45,156 bases of DNA, taken from the NCBI GenBank assembly GCA_030611505.1, contig JAUWPO010000005.1, positions 1 to 45,156 of the forward strand, read 5' to 3'. Under the pieces are notes generated by a model that was not told where the DNA came from, searched no databases, and worked only from the letters and a program-made list of their open reading frames with translations. The position numbers were made by a program, and so were the translations under genes. Of this stretch, positions 1,690 to 36,000 are shown piece by piece (within the stretch, counting starts at the first letter, position 1; every line of letters begins with the position of its first letter). The DNA comes from Chloroflexota bacterium. Its GTDB lineage: Bacteria; Chloroflexota; Anaerolineae; Anaerolineales; UBA4823.

Positions 1690-2964
1690 ATGAATTTTCT
1701 TGAACTGGAAAACACATCTCTAACAAAACTGCGTAAGATGGCAATCGACCTTGATGTTAAAAATGCCAAACGTTTTAAAAAGGAAGATTTGATCCTGCGT
1801 ATCCAACAGGCTGAAGCTGAGGCGAAAGGCTTGGAGCTGCGCGGCGGCATCCTTGAAATCATGAGCGAAGGCATCGGATTCCTGCGCTTTGACCAGTACA
1901 AACCAGGTCCTCTCGATATTTATGTCTCACAATCACAAATCCGGCGCTTCCGGTTGCGCAACGGTGATCTGGTGATTGGACATGTGCGCCCGCCGCGCGA
2001 GTCTGAGCGTCATTATGGGCTGCTCAAAGTGGAGAGCGTTAACGGTCTCGCACCTGAGGAATCGAAGAACAGACCGATTTTCGAATCGCTTGTACCCATT
2101 TTCCCTGACGTGCGCTTTGATCTTGAGATGGATCGCCATACTGTTGCCACACGGCTTATTAACCTGGTAACACCAATCGGCCGCGGGCAGCGCGGACTCA
2201 TCGTTTCACCGCCAAAAGCTGGTAAAACCACCATCCTCAAACAAATCGCCAATTCGATCTCGTATAAATATCCTGGGGTGTACCTGATGGTCGCCTTGAT
2301 CGGTGAACGTCCTGAGGAAGTCACCGACATGGACCGGTCGGTGGATGCCGAAGTGATCTCCTCGACCTTCGACGAGCCAGTCACAGCGCATGTGCGCGCA
2401 GCAGAGATAGCGCTGGAGCGTGCCAAGCGTCTTGTTGAAATTGGACGTGATGTGGTGATTTTGATGGACTCAATCACCCGTCTGGCACGCGCCTACAACC
2501 TGGTCGTTACTCCTTCAGGGCGTACATTATCAGGAGGGATTGATCCATCTGCCTTGTACCCACCCAAACGCTTCTTCGGTGCAGCTCGCAATATCGAGGA
2601 TGGCGGTTCCCTGACCATCATCGCAACTTGCCTGATCGACACAGGGTCGCGCATGGACGACGTGGTATATGAGGAGTTCAAGGGTACCGGCAATATGGAA
2701 CTCCATCTCTCACGCCACCTGCAAGAAAGGCGCGTATTCCCGGCTATCGACATCGATCGTTCCTCTACCCGGAGGGAGGAGCTGTTACTCGGTCCGGACA
2801 TCACTCCGCGCGTTTGGCTGATGCGCCGGATGTACGATCAAATGATAACATCACCTCCCCATGGTGCCGGGTTGGGTATCACAACAGCTACCGAGGCCAT
2901 AATTCAGCGTCTTGCTCGCACCGAAAATAATATGGAATTTCTGGAAAACTTGACCGAGGATTAA
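1690..2964 (+). CDS. rho: Transcription termination factor Rho
   Basis: A 424-residue homohexameric RNA-dependent ATPase/helicase that binds nascent C-rich RNA and releases RNA polymerase. It shows the N-terminal SAP-like helical domain (about residues 4-43), the cold-shock-type RNA-binding fold (about 50-115, with DIYVSQSQIRRFRLR), and the RecA-type motor with the P-loop PPKAGKTT (about 173-180). The family stretches ALIGERPEEVTDM and MDSITRLARAYN follow. Length is normal and there is no large insertion. The start ATG at 1690 fits homologues, although the ribosome-binding site is weak. The gene sits behind an unusually long leader and is followed by a small unknown gene on the same strand. 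Confidence 0.97.
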   Translation: MNFLELENTSLTKLRKMAIDLDVKNAKRFKKEDLILRIQQAEAEAKGLELRGGILEIMSEGIGFLRFDQYKPGPLDIYVSQSQIRRFRLRNGDLVIGHVRPPRESERHYGLLKVESVNGLAPEESKNRPIFESLVPIFPDVRFDLEMDRHTVATRLINLVTPIGRGQRGLIVSPPKAGKTTILKQIANSISYKYPGVYLMVALIGERPEEVTDMDRSVDAEVISSTFDEPVTAHVRAAEIALERAKRLVEIGRDVVILMDSITRLARAYNLVVTPSGRTLSGGIDPSALYPPKRFFGAARNIEDGGSLTIIATCLIDTGSRMDDVVYEEFKGTGNMELHLSRHLQERRVFPAIDIDRSSTRREELLLGPDITPRVWLMRRMYDQMITSPPHGAGLGITTATEAIIQRLARTENNMEFLENLTED

Positions 2965-2976
2965 TAACTGCAATCA

Positions 2977-2991
2977 ACTCTTCTCAAGAGT
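2977..2991 (+). other. Short hairpin after rho
   Basis: A perfect 6-bp stem ACTCTT-CTC-AAGAGT lies 12 bases after the rho stop codon. No T-run follows, so it is not a convincing intrinsic terminator and the next small gene may be co-transcribed with rho. Confidence 0.3.
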
Positions 2992-3030
2992 CCGGACACT
3001 CTCACTTAAAAAAACCACGTAGGAACAACT

Positions 3031-3216
3031 ATGACAAGCGAGATACCTGAACCCAAAACAAAAGTGATCGCTGAAACAGACAATTATATGGCCTGGCAAG
3101 CAGATGAACCCGACGGGGAGAGGACTTATCACCTCGAGCTCCAAAATTTTACACTACACTTTTTTCAAGAAGAATGGGAGGAGTTCCTTAACTTAATCTG
3201 TGCGCTGAGAGAATAA
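3031..3216 (+). CDS. Small conserved-looking protein of unknown function
   Basis: A 61-residue acidic protein, not recognised. An AGGA ribosome-binding site lies 9 bases before the ATG, and the gene follows rho by 66 bases on the same strand, which supports a real gene. The chain is rich in aromatic and acidic residues (tracts FTLHFFQEEWEEF and NYMAWQADEPDG). It has no signal peptide or membrane segment and looks like a small alpha/beta protein. It converges on the transglycosylase gene 16 bases downstream. It could be a Rho-linked small protein or simply a neighbour. Confidence 0.6.
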   Translation: MTSEIPEPKTKVIAETDNYMAWQADEPDGERTYHLELQNFTLHFFQEEWEEFLNLICALRE

Positions 3217-3232
3217 ACCCAATTTTCTAACA

Positions 3233-4852
3233 TCATTCGGTTTCGGTGATTTTCTCAACGTAAGGTATCACACCTTTACAAGGTTCTGTGAAATATTCCT
3301 GCACCTGCTCCCAGTTAAGCAGCCCAACGTTCAGCCAGGTTTGATGAATGGCATAAGAAACACACCCCGGTCCAGCGTGATAATTGGCAACCGTAAAACG
3401 CCACAAATCCTCATAAGTGGAGACGTCCCCCGCTAATTCTCCTGTCGCATTATCTATGGTCTGGCAAATTTGAGCACAGTTCGCCATCAACATGTTAGCG
3501 AACAGAGATACACTGAAACTCGTTTGGGTCAGATCAATTCCGGTGGGACATTCCTCACAATCAGTCTTTGCCTGTAGCGCCACCGCTCCCCTTAAGATAG
3601 CCTGTTCATGGTCACTCAAACTTAAATACCCCTCATCACAAGTCTCTTCAACAAGCACCAAGGGACAAAACTGTTCATAGAACGGAGTATTCCACAATAA
3701 AACGGAATCGGCGCCCGTATCTGTAACCTGACCCAAGCCGAATTCGTATCGAACTCGAAAGACCCCGGGCCAAAACTGGCTTTCTTGGGCGAACAGATTC
3801 TTCATCAATTGTGCCGGGATGCCTGACTCCTGGGCGACCTCAATGATCCTCTGATCAAATTGATTTTGCCAATCATCTAGAATTGGTCTGGCTTTTTCAA
3901 GACCACAAACATCTGCATAACCGTTCGGCAGCAAGCCTCCCGAGGTGCAACCCGAAACATCAATTAACCCTTGAGATATCAACCTGCCAGCCAAGTAGTA
4001 GTAAGGCTCATCGGACGCTATTAGTTCTTCTCGTTCAGGAGTTGTCAGCCAATCGGGTGAACCTCCAATAGGCGGGAACGACTTCCATATCCGGGCACAG
4101 CTTGCTAAAGGATCCCCAACCCATTGGGTGCTGATCACATCCACGTACCAGCCACCACCCCCCGGTGCCGTAGAAACACCCGTGTCAATAACCCGTACAT
4201 GCGCCGTGTACTTTTCGCTCGTATCACCGTAACTGGATTCGGCCCAGAACTCCACCACTGATCCGAGCAGCGGCGTGGCACGTAAGGGAAGAGAGCAGGA
4301 TTGCTCCGGGCAGACAAAAGGTTCCCCATCGTATGTGCCGTGAATAGCTACGATTTCCTCGTTCGGGAGCGGCTCTTCACCAATGAGCAGCAGGTTGGGG
4401 ATTTCGGGACAGAAATTCGTAGGCGGAGTGGGCGCACACCCTTCAAGATCCACCCATACAACCGGTTCTGGTAATTCTACGACGACTTCCTTCTCTTGTG
4501 GTTGGGATGAAGCCAGGTACAGGTATAAACCCTTGCAATCTATAGTTGGGGTACTTTCCTCGTTGGATATCTTACAGGGGGGTGTTATTTGCCACAACTT
4601 ACCTAACTTATTTCCGCAATCCCGGAAAACTTCCTCAGTAGTTGGTAGCCCCTCGTGGTCGGCATATATCCGGCATACGACCTCATTATTTGACCAGGAT
4701 ATTAACCACCACTCATATTCTGTGTACGGGACAATGATCGTCGTAGTACGACCGGATTCATCAGCAGAAACAACTCCCACCTGGAACGCAAAAACAACCA
4801 GGAGGAGCACGGTTAAGGAAACTACGACGAAGATCCTTTTTTCCCACTCCAT
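3233..4852 (-). CDS. Exported lytic transglycosylase-like protein (SLT domain)
   Basis: A 539-residue predicted cell-wall enzyme that would cleave the MurNAc-GlcNAc bond of peptidoglycan. The N-terminus has charged residues, then a hydrophobic stretch (about residues 6-30) ending near VVSADES, a signal peptide or anchor. The middle region is rich in Cys and Pro and is not recognised. The C-terminal SLT-like domain shows GIPAQLMKNLFAQESQFWP with candidate catalytic Glu357, then FGLGQVTDTGAD, and NYHAGPGC in place of the common NYNAG motif. The reading frame extends upstream to a GTG at 4876. ATG 4852 is preferred because a near-consensus promoter places the transcript start next to it. Many cysteines suggest disulfides outside the cell. 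Confidence 0.75.
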   Translation of the reverse strand: MEWEKRIFVVVSLTVLLLVVFAFQVGVVSADESGRTTTIIVPYTEYEWWLISWSNNEVVCRIYADHEGLPTTEEVFRDCGNKLGKLWQITPPCKISNEESTPTIDCKGLYLYLASSQPQEKEVVVELPEPVVWVDLEGCAPTPPTNFCPEIPNLLLIGEEPLPNEEIVAIHGTYDGEPFVCPEQSCSLPLRATPLLGSVVEFWAESSYGDTSEKYTAHVRVIDTGVSTAPGGGGWYVDVISTQWVGDPLASCARIWKSFPPIGGSPDWLTTPEREELIASDEPYYYLAGRLISQGLIDVSGCTSGGLLPNGYADVCGLEKARPILDDWQNQFDQRIIEVAQESGIPAQLMKNLFAQESQFWPGVFRVRYEFGLGQVTDTGADSVLLWNTPFYEQFCPLVLVEETCDEGYLSLSDHEQAILRGAVALQAKTDCEECPTGIDLTQTSFSVSLFANMLMANCAQICQTIDNATGELAGDVSTYEDLWRFTVANYHAGPGCVSYAIHQTWLNVGLLNWEQVQEYFTEPCKGVIPYVEKITETE

Positions 4853-4860
4853 CTGTATAA

Positions 4861-4889
4861 AAAATAACATATTCACGGTAGCCTGTCAA
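4861..4889 (-). promoter_or_regulatory. Promoter of the lytic transglycosylase gene (leaderless)
   Basis: On the minus strand, TTGACA (4884-4889) and TATTTT (4861-4866) are separated by 17 bases. The expected start is around 4853-4854, directly at ATG 4852. This implies a leaderless mRNA and decides the start codon. Confidence 0.6.
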
Positions 4890-4963
4890 CCATTTTTAAG
4901 ATTTGGTTAAGAACAACACCGTTTCACTTTTACTATCACAGACCGGCACTGACCATTTTGCCT

Positions 4964-4992
4964 TTGACTTGCTCCCTCGAATAGCCCATGAT
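4964..4992 (+). promoter_or_regulatory. Possible polA promoter
   Basis: TTGACT (4964-4969) and CATGAT (4987-4992) are 17 bases apart on the plus strand. This is a moderate sigma-70-type match that would give a leader of roughly 100 bases before polA. Confidence 0.35.
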
Positions 4993-5096
4993 AAACTCTA
5001 ATCGAATTGAAGAACCAATTTTTTTACTAGGGAATTGTGGTCAAAACCGATTAAATAAAGTATTTCTATCAGCCAGCCGGATTTGAAAGGTGATCT

Positions 5097-7937
5097 ATGC
5101 CCCAAACTTTGTACCTTATCGACGGTCACGCTTTGGCTTACCGCACATACTTCGCCCTAACGCGGGGTGGATCCTCAGGATTTACGACCCGCAGTGGAGA
5201 GCCTACCGCGGGCGTTTTTGGATTCGCCAGTGTGCTCTTACACATTTTGGAACAAGAAAATCCCGATTTTCTCGCAGTTGCTTTTGACACTGGGCGCACA
5301 TTCCGCGATGAGCTGTACTCTGAATACAAAGCCACGCGTGCCAAAATGCCGGATGATCTGCGTCCTCAAATCGAACGTATTCGCCAACTTGTGGACGCGT
5401 TCAACATTCCGCGCCTCGAATTGGAAGGTTATGAAGCGGATGATGTTCTGGGAAGTGCAGCCCACCAGGCAGTTGAACACGGTCTGGGCGTTAAGATCAT
5501 CACCGGAGATCGCGACCTGCTCCAGTTGGTAGACGAACGTGTCATCGTCACCCTGCCGGGAAAAAGCCTTTCCGATTCCAAGGATTACACGTCTAAAGAT
5601 GTTATTGAGGCCCTCGGGGTACGTCCAGACCAGGTGGTGGATTACAAGGCGCTGGTTGGCGATAAATCCGACAATATCCCGGGGGTAGCCGGAATCGGTC
5701 CGAAGACAGCTGTCTCCCTACTGGGTTCTTATGATGACCTGGATGGCGTTTATGCACATTTAGATGATCTTTCTCCCAACCTGCAGAAGAAATTGGAAAC
5801 CAGCCGCGAAAACGCTTACATGAGCCAGGAATTGGCCAGGATTGTCACACAATTGGATGTACCCCTGGATTTAGAACAAGCGCGACCGGAAGAATTCGAA
5901 CCGCAGGAAGTTGAAGAGCTTTTTCGCGAGCTTGAATTCCGTACCCTTCGAAAGCGGTTAACCGCTCTGGAACTTTTCTACGGCAAAACAAGCGTAAGAC
6001 AAGGACAGCAGCTTACGATGTTCGAATCAAATGGTACTAAGCTCCAAACTCCTCCTCATGCAGTCCAGCCCTCATTCACCTATGCGCTCCAGACTATTAT
6101 CATCGATTCTCATGAAGCACTTAATGACCTTATCAAACGATTATCCCAGGCAGAGGTAATCTCTATTGACACCGAAACAACTTCCACCGACCAGATGAGC
6201 GCCGAATTGGTGGGCATCTCTTTGGCAGTTGAGCTTGGGACGGGTTATTACATTCCACTCGGACACAGCGGGAGTGACGATTCACAACTACCAGTAAAGA
6301 CCGTATTGGATGCGCTGCGTGGTCCTCTTACGGATACTAATATCTCCAAAATTGGACACAACATTAAGTACGATTATGTGGTTCTCGCACGCAATGGGTT
6401 GCGCGCCAGCCCCCTAACATTCGACACGATGATCGCAGAATGGTTGATCAACCCCACTTCGCGCAATCTGGGTTTGAAGAATCTGGCATGGGTGCGCCAG
6501 GGTATTGCAATGACTGGCATAGAGGAATTGATCGGCAAAGGAAAACAGCAGCTTTCGATGAGCGATGTTTCTATCGAGAAAGCAGCACCCTACGCGGCGG
6601 CAGATGCTGAGATCGTTTTAAGCTTGATGTCTGAATTAAAGGAAGAATTGGGCGGAAGAAATGGGAGTGCACTATTCAAAGAGCTTGAAATGCCTCTCGT
6701 GCCGGTCTTGGCCGAGATGGAGATAACGGGTGTAGCCCTGGATACAGGTTTTCTAAACCGGATGTCATCTGAACTGAATGAACGCTTGCTGGAAATCGAA
6801 CAAAAAATCTTTGCAGAAGTTGGAGAATCGTTCAATCTCAACTCTCCCCAACAGCTCTCGGTGGCGCTGTTTGAAAAGCTGCAGATCACACCCCCCGACC
6901 GGACGAAACGCACCGCCAGTGGTTTTTATTCCACTGCCGCCAGTGTCCTTGAATCGCTGGGCGGACAACACACGGTTGTAGATTGGGTGCTGGAATACCG
7001 CGAACTTGCCAAATTAAAGTCAACTTACGTGGATGCACTTCCGCTGCAGGTGAATCCAACAACAGGCAGGGTACACACATCTTTCAACCAGACCGGTTCA
7101 GTAACGGGCAGGATCGCTTCTTCCAAACCCAATCTTCAGAATATCCCCATACGCACCGAAATTGGGCGGAAAGTTCGCAAGGCGTTTGTCGCATCAGCAG
7201 GGCATCTTTTTCTCTCAGTTGACTACTCGCAGATCGAACTGCGTATCGTAGCCCATATGGCAGAGGATAAAGCCATGCTGGATGCTTTCCGAGCCGGACA
7301 GGATATTCACGCCGCTACGGCTGCGGCTATATACAAAGTTCCTCTTGATGAAGTGTCAAAGGAGCAGCGCCGCCGTGCTAAGGGTATCAATTTTGGATTA
7401 ATATATGGGATGAGCGCTTTTGGGCTGACACGATACACAGATTTAACCCTGGCTGAATCAGAAGATTTTATGCACGCATATTTCCAGCAATTCCCCGGTA
7501 TCAAACGATATTTAGAAAAAATACGCCAACTGGCTGCTGAACAAGGCTACGTCGAGACTCTGCTTGGTCGCAGGCGCTATTTCCCGGGGTTGAAACACCA
7601 ATCCAACCGCAATGTCCGCAACCGGGAAGAGCGAGAAGCGATCAACGCCCCAATTCAAGGAACAGCTGCCGATATTATGAAAATTGCCATGCTGCACGTT
7701 CCCAAAGCGCTTTCGGATGCAGGTCTATCAGCACGCATGATCCTGCAAGTACACGACGAGTTAGTGTGGGAGTGCCCGGATAATGAGCTGATGGAAACAG
7801 GGGAACTCGTGCAACGTGTAATGGAAAACGCCTATTCACTCAGTGTTGCTCTAATTACAGATGCGCGTTACGGACCTAATTGGGCTCAAATGACTCCGCT
7901 CAGCAACAGTAAGCAGCGATCTGACCGATCCATCTAA
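5097..7937 (+). CDS. polA: DNA polymerase I with 5' nuclease and proofreading domains
   Basis: A 946-residue three-domain repair and Okazaki-fragment polymerase. The 5'-3' nuclease (about residues 1-290) has GYEADDVLG and the helix-hairpin-helix PGVAGIGPKTA. The 3'-5' exonuclease domain keeps its acidic residues (DTET at 358-361, NIKYDYVVL, YAAADAE), so proofreading should be active, unlike in Taq. Polymerase motif A is DYSQIELR with Asp709, motif B is RRRAKGINFGLIYG, and motif C is QVHDELVW with Asp887 and Glu888. Length matches full-size Pol I. The ATG follows a good GAAAGGTGAT ribosome-binding site. A small DUF6504-like gene follows almost directly. Confidence 0.97.
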   Translation: MPQTLYLIDGHALAYRTYFALTRGGSSGFTTRSGEPTAGVFGFASVLLHILEQENPDFLAVAFDTGRTFRDELYSEYKATRAKMPDDLRPQIERIRQLVDAFNIPRLELEGYEADDVLGSAAHQAVEHGLGVKIITGDRDLLQLVDERVIVTLPGKSLSDSKDYTSKDVIEALGVRPDQVVDYKALVGDKSDNIPGVAGIGPKTAVSLLGSYDDLDGVYAHLDDLSPNLQKKLETSRENAYMSQELARIVTQLDVPLDLEQARPEEFEPQEVEELFRELEFRTLRKRLTALELFYGKTSVRQGQQLTMFESNGTKLQTPPHAVQPSFTYALQTIIIDSHEALNDLIKRLSQAEVISIDTETTSTDQMSAELVGISLAVELGTGYYIPLGHSGSDDSQLPVKTVLDALRGPLTDTNISKIGHNIKYDYVVLARNGLRASPLTFDTMIAEWLINPTSRNLGLKNLAWVRQGIAMTGIEELIGKGKQQLSMSDVSIEKAAPYAAADAEIVLSLMSELKEELGGRNGSALFKELEMPLVPVLAEMEITGVALDTGFLNRMSSELNERLLEIEQKIFAEVGESFNLNSPQQLSVALFEKLQITPPDRTKRTASGFYSTAASVLESLGGQHTVVDWVLEYRELAKLKSTYVDALPLQVNPTTGRVHTSFNQTGSVTGRIASSKPNLQNIPIRTEIGRKVRKAFVASAGHLFLSVDYSQIELRIVAHMAEDKAMLDAFRAGQDIHAATAAAIYKVPLDEVSKEQRRRAKGINFGLIYGMSAFGLTRYTDLTLAESEDFMHAYFQQFPGIKRYLEKIRQLAAEQGYVETLLGRRRYFPGLKHQSNRNVRNREEREAINAPIQGTAADIMKIAMLHVPKALSDAGLSARMILQVHDELVWECPDNELMETGELVQRVMENAYSLSVALITDARYGPNWAQMTPLSNSKQRSDRSI

Positions 7938-33587: not shown

Positions 33588-34352
33588 TTACACTCCCTTT
33601 TTTGCAGTCAAAATAACATCCCTCTGAATATCACCCCACAAATTATGATAGGCGTTTGAAGCAGCCGAAATTGGCGCAAAGGCTGAAACAGGCTGGCGCT
33701 CGATATCCATCCTTTCGACCAGTGACAGATAGGGAATGACGCTTTTCAGCACACCTTTGAACTCAAGACGTATTTCTTCCATGAACTCGCGATGTGTCCT
33801 CCTCTTGTAATCAACCATGGACAAGAAGGGGTGGATGGAATTCAGATCATACCCGATGTCGTCCAGGAATCCAATTAACTGCCTGTGGTTCCGTATCGAC
33901 AACGTTGTTGGTGTTATAGGTACAAGAACATAATCTGCTGCATTGAATATATTCTCTGCCAAAATATTGATCGTTGGAAGACAATCTAGAATGATCAAAT
34001 CGTATTCGTCTTCAAGCGGTTTTAATATTCTGGTCAGCCTGTGTTTAGAACGCTTTAGCTTTATGAAAGTAATATCAAGATTTCTATGCGTGAAATCGGC
34101 TGGCAAGATATCAAGGTTTTCATAATCGGTACCCTTGATGCTCTTTCTAACCTGCTTATTTCCCCCAATAAAACCCCTGGCTTTGGGTTTGATCTTGGGT
34201 TTTACACGGAAGTAATATGTTGTTGAACTCTGCGGATCAAGGTCACAGATCAGAGTAGGCACTCCTGATTGGGCAGCTAAGTACGATAAATTCACGGCTG
34301 CTGCTGTTTTTCCAACCCCGCCTTTGTTGCTATACAACGCCAATACCGTCAC
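33588..34352 (-). CDS. ParA/MinD-family ATPase, orphan type without ParB
   Basis: A 254-residue deviant Walker ATPase. It has SNKGGVGKTAAAV with Lys10 and Lys15, the Walker A' segment CDLDPQSSTTYYF, and Walker B LIILDCLPT. There is no N-terminal HTH, so it resembles small ParA-like cargo-positioning ATPases more than plasmid ParA with a DNA-binding head. A basic segment (KPKIKPKARGFIGGNKQVRKSIKG) follows Walker A', and the C-terminal half is Arg-rich, fitting non-specific DNA binding. The start is GTG at 34352, overlapping the CHAD stop by 4 bases (GTGA), so translation is coupled. No parB or parS was seen. The CHAD neighbour suggests polyphosphate or granule cargo (inference). Confidence 0.88.
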   Translation of the reverse strand: MTVLALYSNKGGVGKTAAAVNLSYLAAQSGVPTLICDLDPQSSTTYYFRVKPKIKPKARGFIGGNKQVRKSIKGTDYENLDILPADFTHRNLDITFIKLKRSKHRLTRILKPLEDEYDLIILDCLPTINILAENIFNAADYVLVPITPTTLSIRNHRQLIGFLDDIGYDLNSIHPFLSMVDYKRRTHREFMEEIRLEFKGVLKSVIPYLSLVERMDIERQPVSAFAPISAASNAYHNLWGDIQRDVILTAKKGV

Positions 34353-35920
34353 AAGGATGCCTCTCTCTCTTTCTGTGCAAATAGATTACGAAATAATTTC
34401 CGATTCTCCGGGCAGGAGAATTCTGTAAAAGTTTTGGAAAACGAAGCCTGGGCGGATTGTTTTTCATTGTCCAAAGCTCCAACAAGGCTGCCAATTGCTA
34501 AAATCGTCTTCCTTGATTGGGCTTCGTTCACCGGCAATTCCTCAGAAATCTCGAGTAGATATTGCTCCTGGATACAGAAATCATTAAAATCACCCAAATT
34601 ATCCTGCAGCTTGCGCAATTGCTTCAACACCATGTCAATCTTCTTGCGGGGGAAAAGATCCGCAAAGAACTCTATCAAGTAGCGCAATTTCTTGCATTCG
34701 ATCCTGAGGAGATGAAGCTGCTTTTCTTGTGGGTCCTGCAGAGCGATACTACCATCTCTTATGACACTCCGGTATCTCTTGTAAATCCTATCCTGTGCAA
34801 GGTCGATAATCGACTGTCCGGCGTATGGCGCTTCGTGATTCTCCGCAGCCGGTTCGTTCAAAAATACCTCCCAATCATTCTTGATACGACCATATTCAAC
34901 AGATCCCAGAGAGTTTACTACATCCATCAGTGACTTTGAGCGCTTTTCCCTGAGATAAGCAAACATCGGAGCAATATCTTCCCGTAATACAACAGGCAGC
35001 ATAGACTTATAAGCTTCCTCTTTCAAGAGATAGACATCCAGGTCTCTAAGCTGGTTGGTGGTTTCCCCTAGAGAGGCAAAGTCATTTTTATAACGATCAG
35101 TTTTTTCGGGCGGGAAAACGTGTTTGAGTTGGGTCAAAGCTGACCGGGTACGGCGGACCGCAACCCGATAATCATGCAAGAATTCTGTATCAATGTCCGT
35201 TTGGATCCCGGGTTCATTTATTTTCATCACTTCAAGCAGAAAGCGTAAAACTCTTTTGACCGCTTCATCTGAACGCATATCAGGTTCGAGTTTAATCTCA
35301 AGTTTAGATGAATAATCGCCGGGCTTTGCTCCAGCCGCCCCCAGGATTTGCAGGTAGATATCACCTTCTGTGATGTACTCACAGCCGGCTTCTGCGAAAT
35401 GATTTGCCAAATCTCGGAAATGCTTTGGATAACCCCTGACTGGTTTAATCTTCAAATGAACCACTGATGGACGCTGGTCGTTACCTGCTGGGAAGCACAC
35501 CTCTTCATGAATTATCCTGACTACCGTTTTATCATCCATATTCAAAATGCGATAAGAGCAGGTTTTTCGCTGGACTTCAGCCCGTTTTAGTAGCGCTCGC
35601 ATTTCTACAACAGGTGCTAATTGCCTTTTCAAGTTGCTTTCGGGTAAATCCTCGACAAAAACCGGTTGTATGACGGTTGTAAGAGTACTGAGAATGTCAT
35701 CATCCGGTAGTAGGTGTAAGCTCAATTTATTTCCACAAAGATAAAGCGCAAGAGATTCATCAAACAGCCGCCAGTCGAAAGTATCCAATAGGGTTAACGG
35801 CTCGAGAAACGGTCTCTCTCTTTCAAAAGCGTGAATTGGCGCCAATTCAGATTCTAGTTCCCCAAAGCTATAACCATCTGGCATTTGAAATATCATGTTA
35901 TTCAAGATTTGCCCATCCAT
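34349..35920 (-). CDS. CYTH-like/CHAD domain polyphosphate-binding protein
   Basis: A 523-residue protein. The N-terminal half (about residues 20-215) looks like a divergent CYTH-type domain (LLDTFDWRLFDESLALYL). The C-terminal CHAD domain (about 220-510) is an all-helical, basic domain whose conserved His, Lys and Arg residues bind inorganic polyphosphate. Visible are LHDYRVAVRRTRSALTQL and HLLRIECKKLRYLIEFF. The full frame opens at a TTG (35923), and ATG 35920 is used. CHAD proteins associate with polyphosphate granules in other bacteria. The overlap with a ParA gene, and pyruvate kinase downstream, make a granule-linked locus plausible (inference). No ppk or ppx gene is in the window. Confidence 0.85.
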   Translation of the reverse strand: MDGQILNNMIFQMPDGYSFGELESELAPIHAFERERPFLEPLTLLDTFDWRLFDESLALYLCGNKLSLHLLPDDDILSTLTTVIQPVFVEDLPESNLKRQLAPVVEMRALLKRAEVQRKTCSYRILNMDDKTVVRIIHEEVCFPAGNDQRPSVVHLKIKPVRGYPKHFRDLANHFAEAGCEYITEGDIYLQILGAAGAKPGDYSSKLEIKLEPDMRSDEAVKRVLRFLLEVMKINEPGIQTDIDTEFLHDYRVAVRRTRSALTQLKHVFPPEKTDRYKNDFASLGETTNQLRDLDVYLLKEEAYKSMLPVVLREDIAPMFAYLREKRSKSLMDVVNSLGSVEYGRIKNDWEVFLNEPAAENHEAPYAGQSIIDLAQDRIYKRYRSVIRDGSIALQDPQEKQLHLLRIECKKLRYLIEFFADLFPRKKIDMVLKQLRKLQDNLGDFNDFCIQEQYLLEISEELPVNEAQSRKTILAIGSLVGALDNEKQSAQASFSKTFTEFSCPENRKLFRNLFAQKEREASL

Positions 35921-36000
35921 CAATTGATATCCATACCCTTTTTTTACTAACCCCTTGCTTTAACAGCCCTGGAGCGGGTATCTTTTTCATATCTTTGTTT

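Follow-up and report, generated by a model that had tools for sequence, protein, structure and literature searches.

A ParA-family ATPase and a CHAD protein are encoded side by side in bacteria of more than 12 phyla, and the two very probably form a functional unit tied to polyphosphate (polyP). We analyzed this pair in a 45,156-nucleotide stretch of DNA from a Chloroflexota bacterium (GenBank assembly GCA_030611505.1, contig JAUWPO010000005.1; hereafter the window), which is part of the contig we call C29 in a source genome of 2.32 Mb that is 86% complete. We put at roughly 60% the probability that the pair is a ParA/MinD-type system with polyP as its cargo and a pseudo-enzyme TTM domain as the link between CHAD and ParA. 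By analogy with known cargo systems, positioning or partitioning of polyP granules is probably the best mechanism. The two genes lie in the window as follows.

34349 to 35923, minus strand: CHAD protein of 524 amino acids, with a pseudo-TTM (CYTH-fold) N-terminal domain and a long CHAD domain (Pfam CHAD, E 1.3e-52; AlphaFold pLDDT 94.5; VIA-align Z 37.6 to the C. tepidum CHAD 6QV7).

33588 to 34352, minus strand: ParA ATPase of 254 amino acids with a GTG start (AAA_31, E 1.1e-37; fold nearest to Soj and ParA; in a clade of its own).

34349 to 34352, minus strand: four-nucleotide overlap GTGA of the CHAD stop with the ParA start, read in the sequence; the same kind of overlap (ATGA/GTGA) occurs in 19 of 20 Anaerolineae pairs.

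A CHAD alignment was scanned against 84,980 species genomes, and the best 80 loci, which cover more than 12 phyla by their record titles, were analyzed. ParA was found directly downstream of CHAD on the same strand in 73 of these 80 loci, 36 of them with a four-nucleotide overlap. The genomes of six CHADs that lacked an adjacent ParA hold ordinary ParAs only, or none, with no ParA of this clade elsewhere. Closer to the window, the pair was present in only one other of 38 genomes of the same family, and 26 of 396 genomes of the class Anaerolineae carried a ParA of this kind, with CHAD directly upstream in 19 of the 26. A sample of 321 Gammaproteobacteria genomes yielded 39 CHAD genes of this type, 33 with ParA adjacent. 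Eight unpaired close relatives grouped with the paired ParAs in one clade, clearly separated from the family's remaining ParAs, and distances between ParAs mirrored those between CHADs (r 0.87, reached by 0 of 2000 permutations), a correlation to which shared species history contributes. The adjacency is far beyond chance, and the computation shows that CHAD and ParA are co-encoded, inherited jointly and lost together. An earlier reading of the window from its letters (the sequence-only reading) had noted the GTGA overlap, which we find at the same place, and the neighborhood survey shows that ParA also adjoins CHAD in relatives, both within Anaerolineae and beyond Chloroflexota.

The cargo is suggested by the CHAD domain, whose main features are these.

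34367 to 35311, minus strand: CHAD domain, residues ~205-519, a polyP-binding fold (38% identity and a root-mean-square deviation of 1.7 Å over 315 residues to C. tepidum CtCHAD; VIA-align, 6QV7, Z 37.6, matching residues 204-519).

35153 to 35176, minus strand: His250, Arg253 and Arg257, equivalents of the CtCHAD polyP ligands H253, R256 and R260, invariant in 78 relatives.

35045 to 35047, minus strand: Arg293, equivalent of CtCHAD R296, invariant in 78 relatives.

The polyP ligands of CtCHAD were established by structure and mutation (PMC6537752), 6QVA being the CtCHAD structure with bound polyP, and in SsCHAD the equivalent of Arg293, Arg69, was required for polyP binding (PMC6537752). The protein of the window thus has both the fold and the polyP ligands of a CHAD phosin. 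His250, Arg253 and Arg257 were retained in every ParA-less CHAD as well as in the paired ones.

Genes of polyP metabolism were also found near the pair. At least one of ppk1, ppk2 and ppx lay within 5 kb in 35 of the best 80 loci, that is, in 35 of the 60 loci outside Chloroflexota, and representatives were confirmed with Pfam. Other recurrent neighbors were CYTH triphosphatases (27 loci), SixA-like phosphatases (25 loci) and phosphate transport genes; the SixA-like histidine phosphatase stands, for example, at L127:4500-5006 and in 24 other loci. One ParA of the clade without CHAD lies convergent beside a gene with a VTC (polyP polymerase) domain and a DUF4956 gene (L073:3626-6007). In the source genome ppk1 is present, its single PP_kinase match being on contig C53 and not on the contig of the window; there, at ~2348-5770 (L001, L075, L177), ppk1 adjoins a second CHAD gene with a Ppx-GppA domain III and without a neighboring ParA, possibly a separate polyP device.

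The N-terminal domain of the CHAD protein suggests how it might be linked to ParA.

35312 to 35923, minus strand: N-terminal TTM-fold domain, residues ~1-204 (VIA-align Z ~12-13 to several TTM enzymes over residues 6-204, and Z 18 to YgiF, 5A60; no Pfam match; ExExK missing).

35528 to 35530, minus strand: Lys132 of the TTM domain, a proposed ParA-coupling residue, present in all 105 paired CHADs that could be aligned and in 2 of the 11 without ParA.

35429 to 35431, minus strand: Tyr165 (GY motif) of the TTM domain, a proposed ParA-coupling residue, Tyr or Phe in 105 of 105 alignable paired CHADs (Tyr in 100, Phe in 5) versus 0 of 11 without ParA (one has Trp).

Pfam CYTH gave no match in any of 18 CHADs even at E 1, and the TTM identity came from the fold search. 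The ExExK catalytic motif was absent from the N-terminal strand throughout the 78-row set, two pattern matches being at residues 89-101, outside the strand, whereas it was present in 27 of 27 stand-alone CYTH neighbors. The domain thus has the fold of the CYTH/TTM triphosphatases and lacks their motif.

The two residues followed ParA in both sets of sequences. In the discovery set (78 rows), Lys132 was found in 72 of 72 paired CHADs and in 2 of 6 ParA-less ones, and Tyr165 in 68 of 72 (the rest having Phe) and in 0 of 6; three rows that are uncertain as pairs were counted as paired, namely L153 (at a contig end), L144 (with a broken ParA) and L151 (cut). In the second set (Gammaproteobacteria and plasmids), Lys132 was found in 33 of 33 paired and 0 of 5 ParA-less CHADs, and Tyr165 in 32 of 33 (Phe in the other) and 0 of 5. 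Because Lys132 and Tyr165 were chosen from many columns, the second set carries the weight; the loss of TTM motifs in the six ParA-less CHADs had been noted before that set was read. Two further ParA-less CHADs have no TTM domain and stand outside the 11 that could be aligned. A tree of CHAD domains gave seven supported independent contrasts; residue 165 followed ParA in all 7 (p 0.016), and Lys132 did so in 5 to 6, no contrast opposing it. The strand order suggests that the loops of Lys132 and Tyr165 share one end of the barrel.

Taken together, these data are consistent with the following scheme. The CHAD domain would grip polyP chains or granules, and a patch on the catalytically dead TTM domain, with Lys132 and Tyr/Phe165 in it, would link the protein to ParA. 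The ATP-bound ParA dimer would bind the nucleoid, and its contact with granule-bound CHAD would stimulate ATP hydrolysis and release; this would spread the granules out over the nucleoid and divide them between the daughter cells. We infer that the two proteins touch, that the ATPase is stimulated, that ParA binds the nucleoid and that granules are positioned. The more specific proposal, that in more than 12 phyla an ATP-driven ParA system positions or partitions polyP granules and that the dead TTM domain, via Lys132 and Tyr/Phe165, is the ParA-docking module of the CHAD granule-binding protein, is put forward tentatively, at somewhat less than even odds.

The ParA protein itself has the features of a ParA/MinD (deviant Walker A) ATPase.

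34305 to 34325, minus strand: deviant Walker A motif KGGVGKT, residues 10-16, invariant in 64 ParAs, with the signature lysine K10 and the invariant K15.

K10, K15 and D123 were present in 64 of 64 ParAs, and D37 and D39 in 63 of 63 readable ones, so that the Walker A' and Walker B aspartates accompany the deviant Walker A motif. The model (pLDDT 88.7) had Soj and ParA as its closest solved folds (Foldseek TM 0.85-0.87), and McdA was ~20% identical to it. A conserved basic loop at residues 182-188, which presumably sits where Soj-type ParAs bind DNA, is compatible with nucleoid binding.

These features bear on an alternative in which the ATPase is an ATP switch that regulates polyP enzymes or the CHAD scaffold, as BcsQ and FlhG do in their systems, and moves no granules. 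BcsQ, FlhG and FleN have the same fold, genes for ppk1, ppk2, ppx and CYTH proteins are often in the same cluster, and one ParA of the clade stands directly after ppk1 with no CHAD found nearby (L217:1741-4759). However, the closest solved folds in the Foldseek search were Soj and ParA, not BcsQ or FlhG, and the basic loop is kept at the presumed DNA-binding position. We consider the switch unlikely.

With a Soj-like fold, ParA might also serve plasmid or chromosome partition and merely stand beside CHAD. A few Paracoccus plasmids do carry the pair, which is otherwise chiefly in genome records. But the source genome, 86% complete, yielded no ParB_N domain (parS sites were not searched), and the adjacency in 73 of the best 80 loci, the co-loss and the residue correlation indicate a co-encoded, dedicated cargo-binding partner of the kind that marks ParA cargo-positioning systems. 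Moreover, the plasmid pairs sit with CYTH and NUDIX genes (CHAD-ParA-CYTH-NUDIX), and no ParB is in the plasmid region shown. Partition is therefore a very improbable explanation. The orphan status that the sequence-only reading had given this ParA holds as far as it can be tested in this genome; the sole other ParA-family match there at E 1e-3 (contig C77, 1676-2383; L074) is distant, at 24% identity. On the Paracoccus marcusii plasmid (L189:7502-9154), the NUDIX gene follows CHAD-ParA-CYTH, and its product may act on polyP or nucleotides.

Two kinds of protein with a basic tail were seen near some pairs. In several Chloroflexota, a protein with a helix-turn-helix-like start and a very lysine-rich tail is encoded just upstream of CHAD (L079:10475-11056; L093 and L094, position -2; L139:5409-5918), and its tail is reminiscent of the basic one in AlgP, which spaces polyP granules. 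In Desulfobacterales, the pair is followed by a small, conserved protein whose start is helix-hairpin-helix-like and whose tail is basic (L102:4448-5023; L103, L111, L112 and L117; position +3). Such lysine-rich or helix-hairpin-helix-like neighbors, together with the ParA fold and the intact ATP site, would also fit a pair that tethers polyP to the nucleoid for a DNA-centered role, such as compacting or segregating the chromosome under starvation, the placement of granules being a by-product; a review describes granule placement in Caulobacter as dependent on chromosome segregation (PMC13052382). Against this, the source genome yielded no ParB_N, and the recurrent neighbors of the pair are phosphate genes, not replication or segregation genes. 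We regard the tether as improbable, more so than the switch.

Several observations weigh against polyP as the cargo of a TTM-coupled ParA. None of the 20 Chloroflexota loci has ppk1, ppk2 or ppx within 5 kb. CHAD does not always accompany ParA: of the 49 clade ParA genes listed in the Gammaproteobacteria sample, this CHAD is the neighbor of 32 and a CHAD that is diverged or short the neighbor of 5, while one comes straight after ppk1, one is at the end of a contig and 10 stand alone, and seven Anaerolineae genomes carry ParA alone, with no CHAD of this type found in them. Some diverged ParAs pair with short CHADs that have no TTM domain (L213, L214, L219, L221), and docking through TTM is thus not universal. 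Lys132 and Tyr165 could serve a TTM ligand instead of a ParA contact. Finally, the CHAD protein rows examined have no conserved basic N-terminal tail, which is usual in ParA partners. Known partners contact the ATPase via basic residues, in McdB a lysine (PMC12204374), and Lys132, in a folded TTM domain, is a candidate to stand in for the basic N-terminal stretch.

The sequence-only reading had suggested that the pair is a device for granule segregation or positioning in a storage-related operon. ParA and CHAD acting on polyP is supported indirectly, through cross-phyla conservation, co-loss, the ppk1, ppk2 and ppx neighbors and the polyP ligands, whereas the storage operon is not. A pyruvate kinase gene, starting 9 nucleotides past the ParA stop, and the glycogen debranching gene glgX do follow the pair on the same strand, but among the loci searched, many with short flanks, pyruvate kinase turned up in the window's DNA alone and glgX beside no relative. 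The CHAD gene starts with TTG at 35923, with an ATG one codon further in, at 35920, the coordinate used in the sequence-only reading. Rfam gave no match within the window, and promoter and terminator scans gave no signal above chance.

The pair resembles McdAB carboxysome positioning and other ParA/MinD cargo systems, in which a ParA-family ATPase is encoded beside a cargo-binding partner without ParB and the partner makes contact via basic residues (PMC12204374; PMC10241942). It differs in that the partner is a folded pseudo-TTM and CHAD protein, the cargo would be polyP, and a basic N-terminal tail is not evident. CHAD phosins and CtCHAD (Tumlirsch and Jendrossek 2017; PMC6537752) share the long CHAD type and the polyP ligands, but those studies treat CHAD alone; we add its proposed link to ParA and a conserved TTM domain that has lost its catalytic motif. 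E. coli YgiF (5A60) has the same order of TTM and CHAD domains, but it is an active triphosphatase whose short CHAD domain has no central pore (PMC6537752), whereas the protein here has lost the catalytic motif. AlgP of Pseudomonas aeruginosa (PMC9239181) spaces polyP granules on the nucleoid, but it is a histone H1-like DNA-binding protein, not an ATPase.

The sequence-only reading knew of no description of the pairing, which is correct only in part. In the folD-ppk-parA-CHAD cluster of Acidithiobacillus (PMC10892726, PMC6416229), parA adjoins a CYTH-CHAD gene beside ppk1; parA is named there in passing and was not studied, and the papers consider CYTH-CHAD as an adenylate cyclase or in connection with copper resistance. 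A copper resistance role was proposed for CHAD in a paper (PMC10892726) that itself found no metal-resistance genes near CHAD, and we set this role aside. Work on one organism with several ParA/MinD cargos mentions neither polyP nor CHAD (PMC10241942), and the literature searched, mostly outside subscription papers, held no test of a CHAD-paired ParA.

The placement and inheritance of polyP granules in bacteria is an open question. The only placement factor named in a 2025 review is AlgP, and the review calls the use of ATP in placement unknown (PMC13052382). The ATPase that many phyla encode together with a polyP-binding protein is a direct candidate, and the two residues named in its partner open the idea to tests in hosts that can be cultured, for example Acidithiobacillus or Paracoccus. 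If it is true, the ParA/MinD family would gain a new cargo and the dead TTM domain a use, and a large number of bacteria may actively control where their phosphate granules lie or how they are divided.
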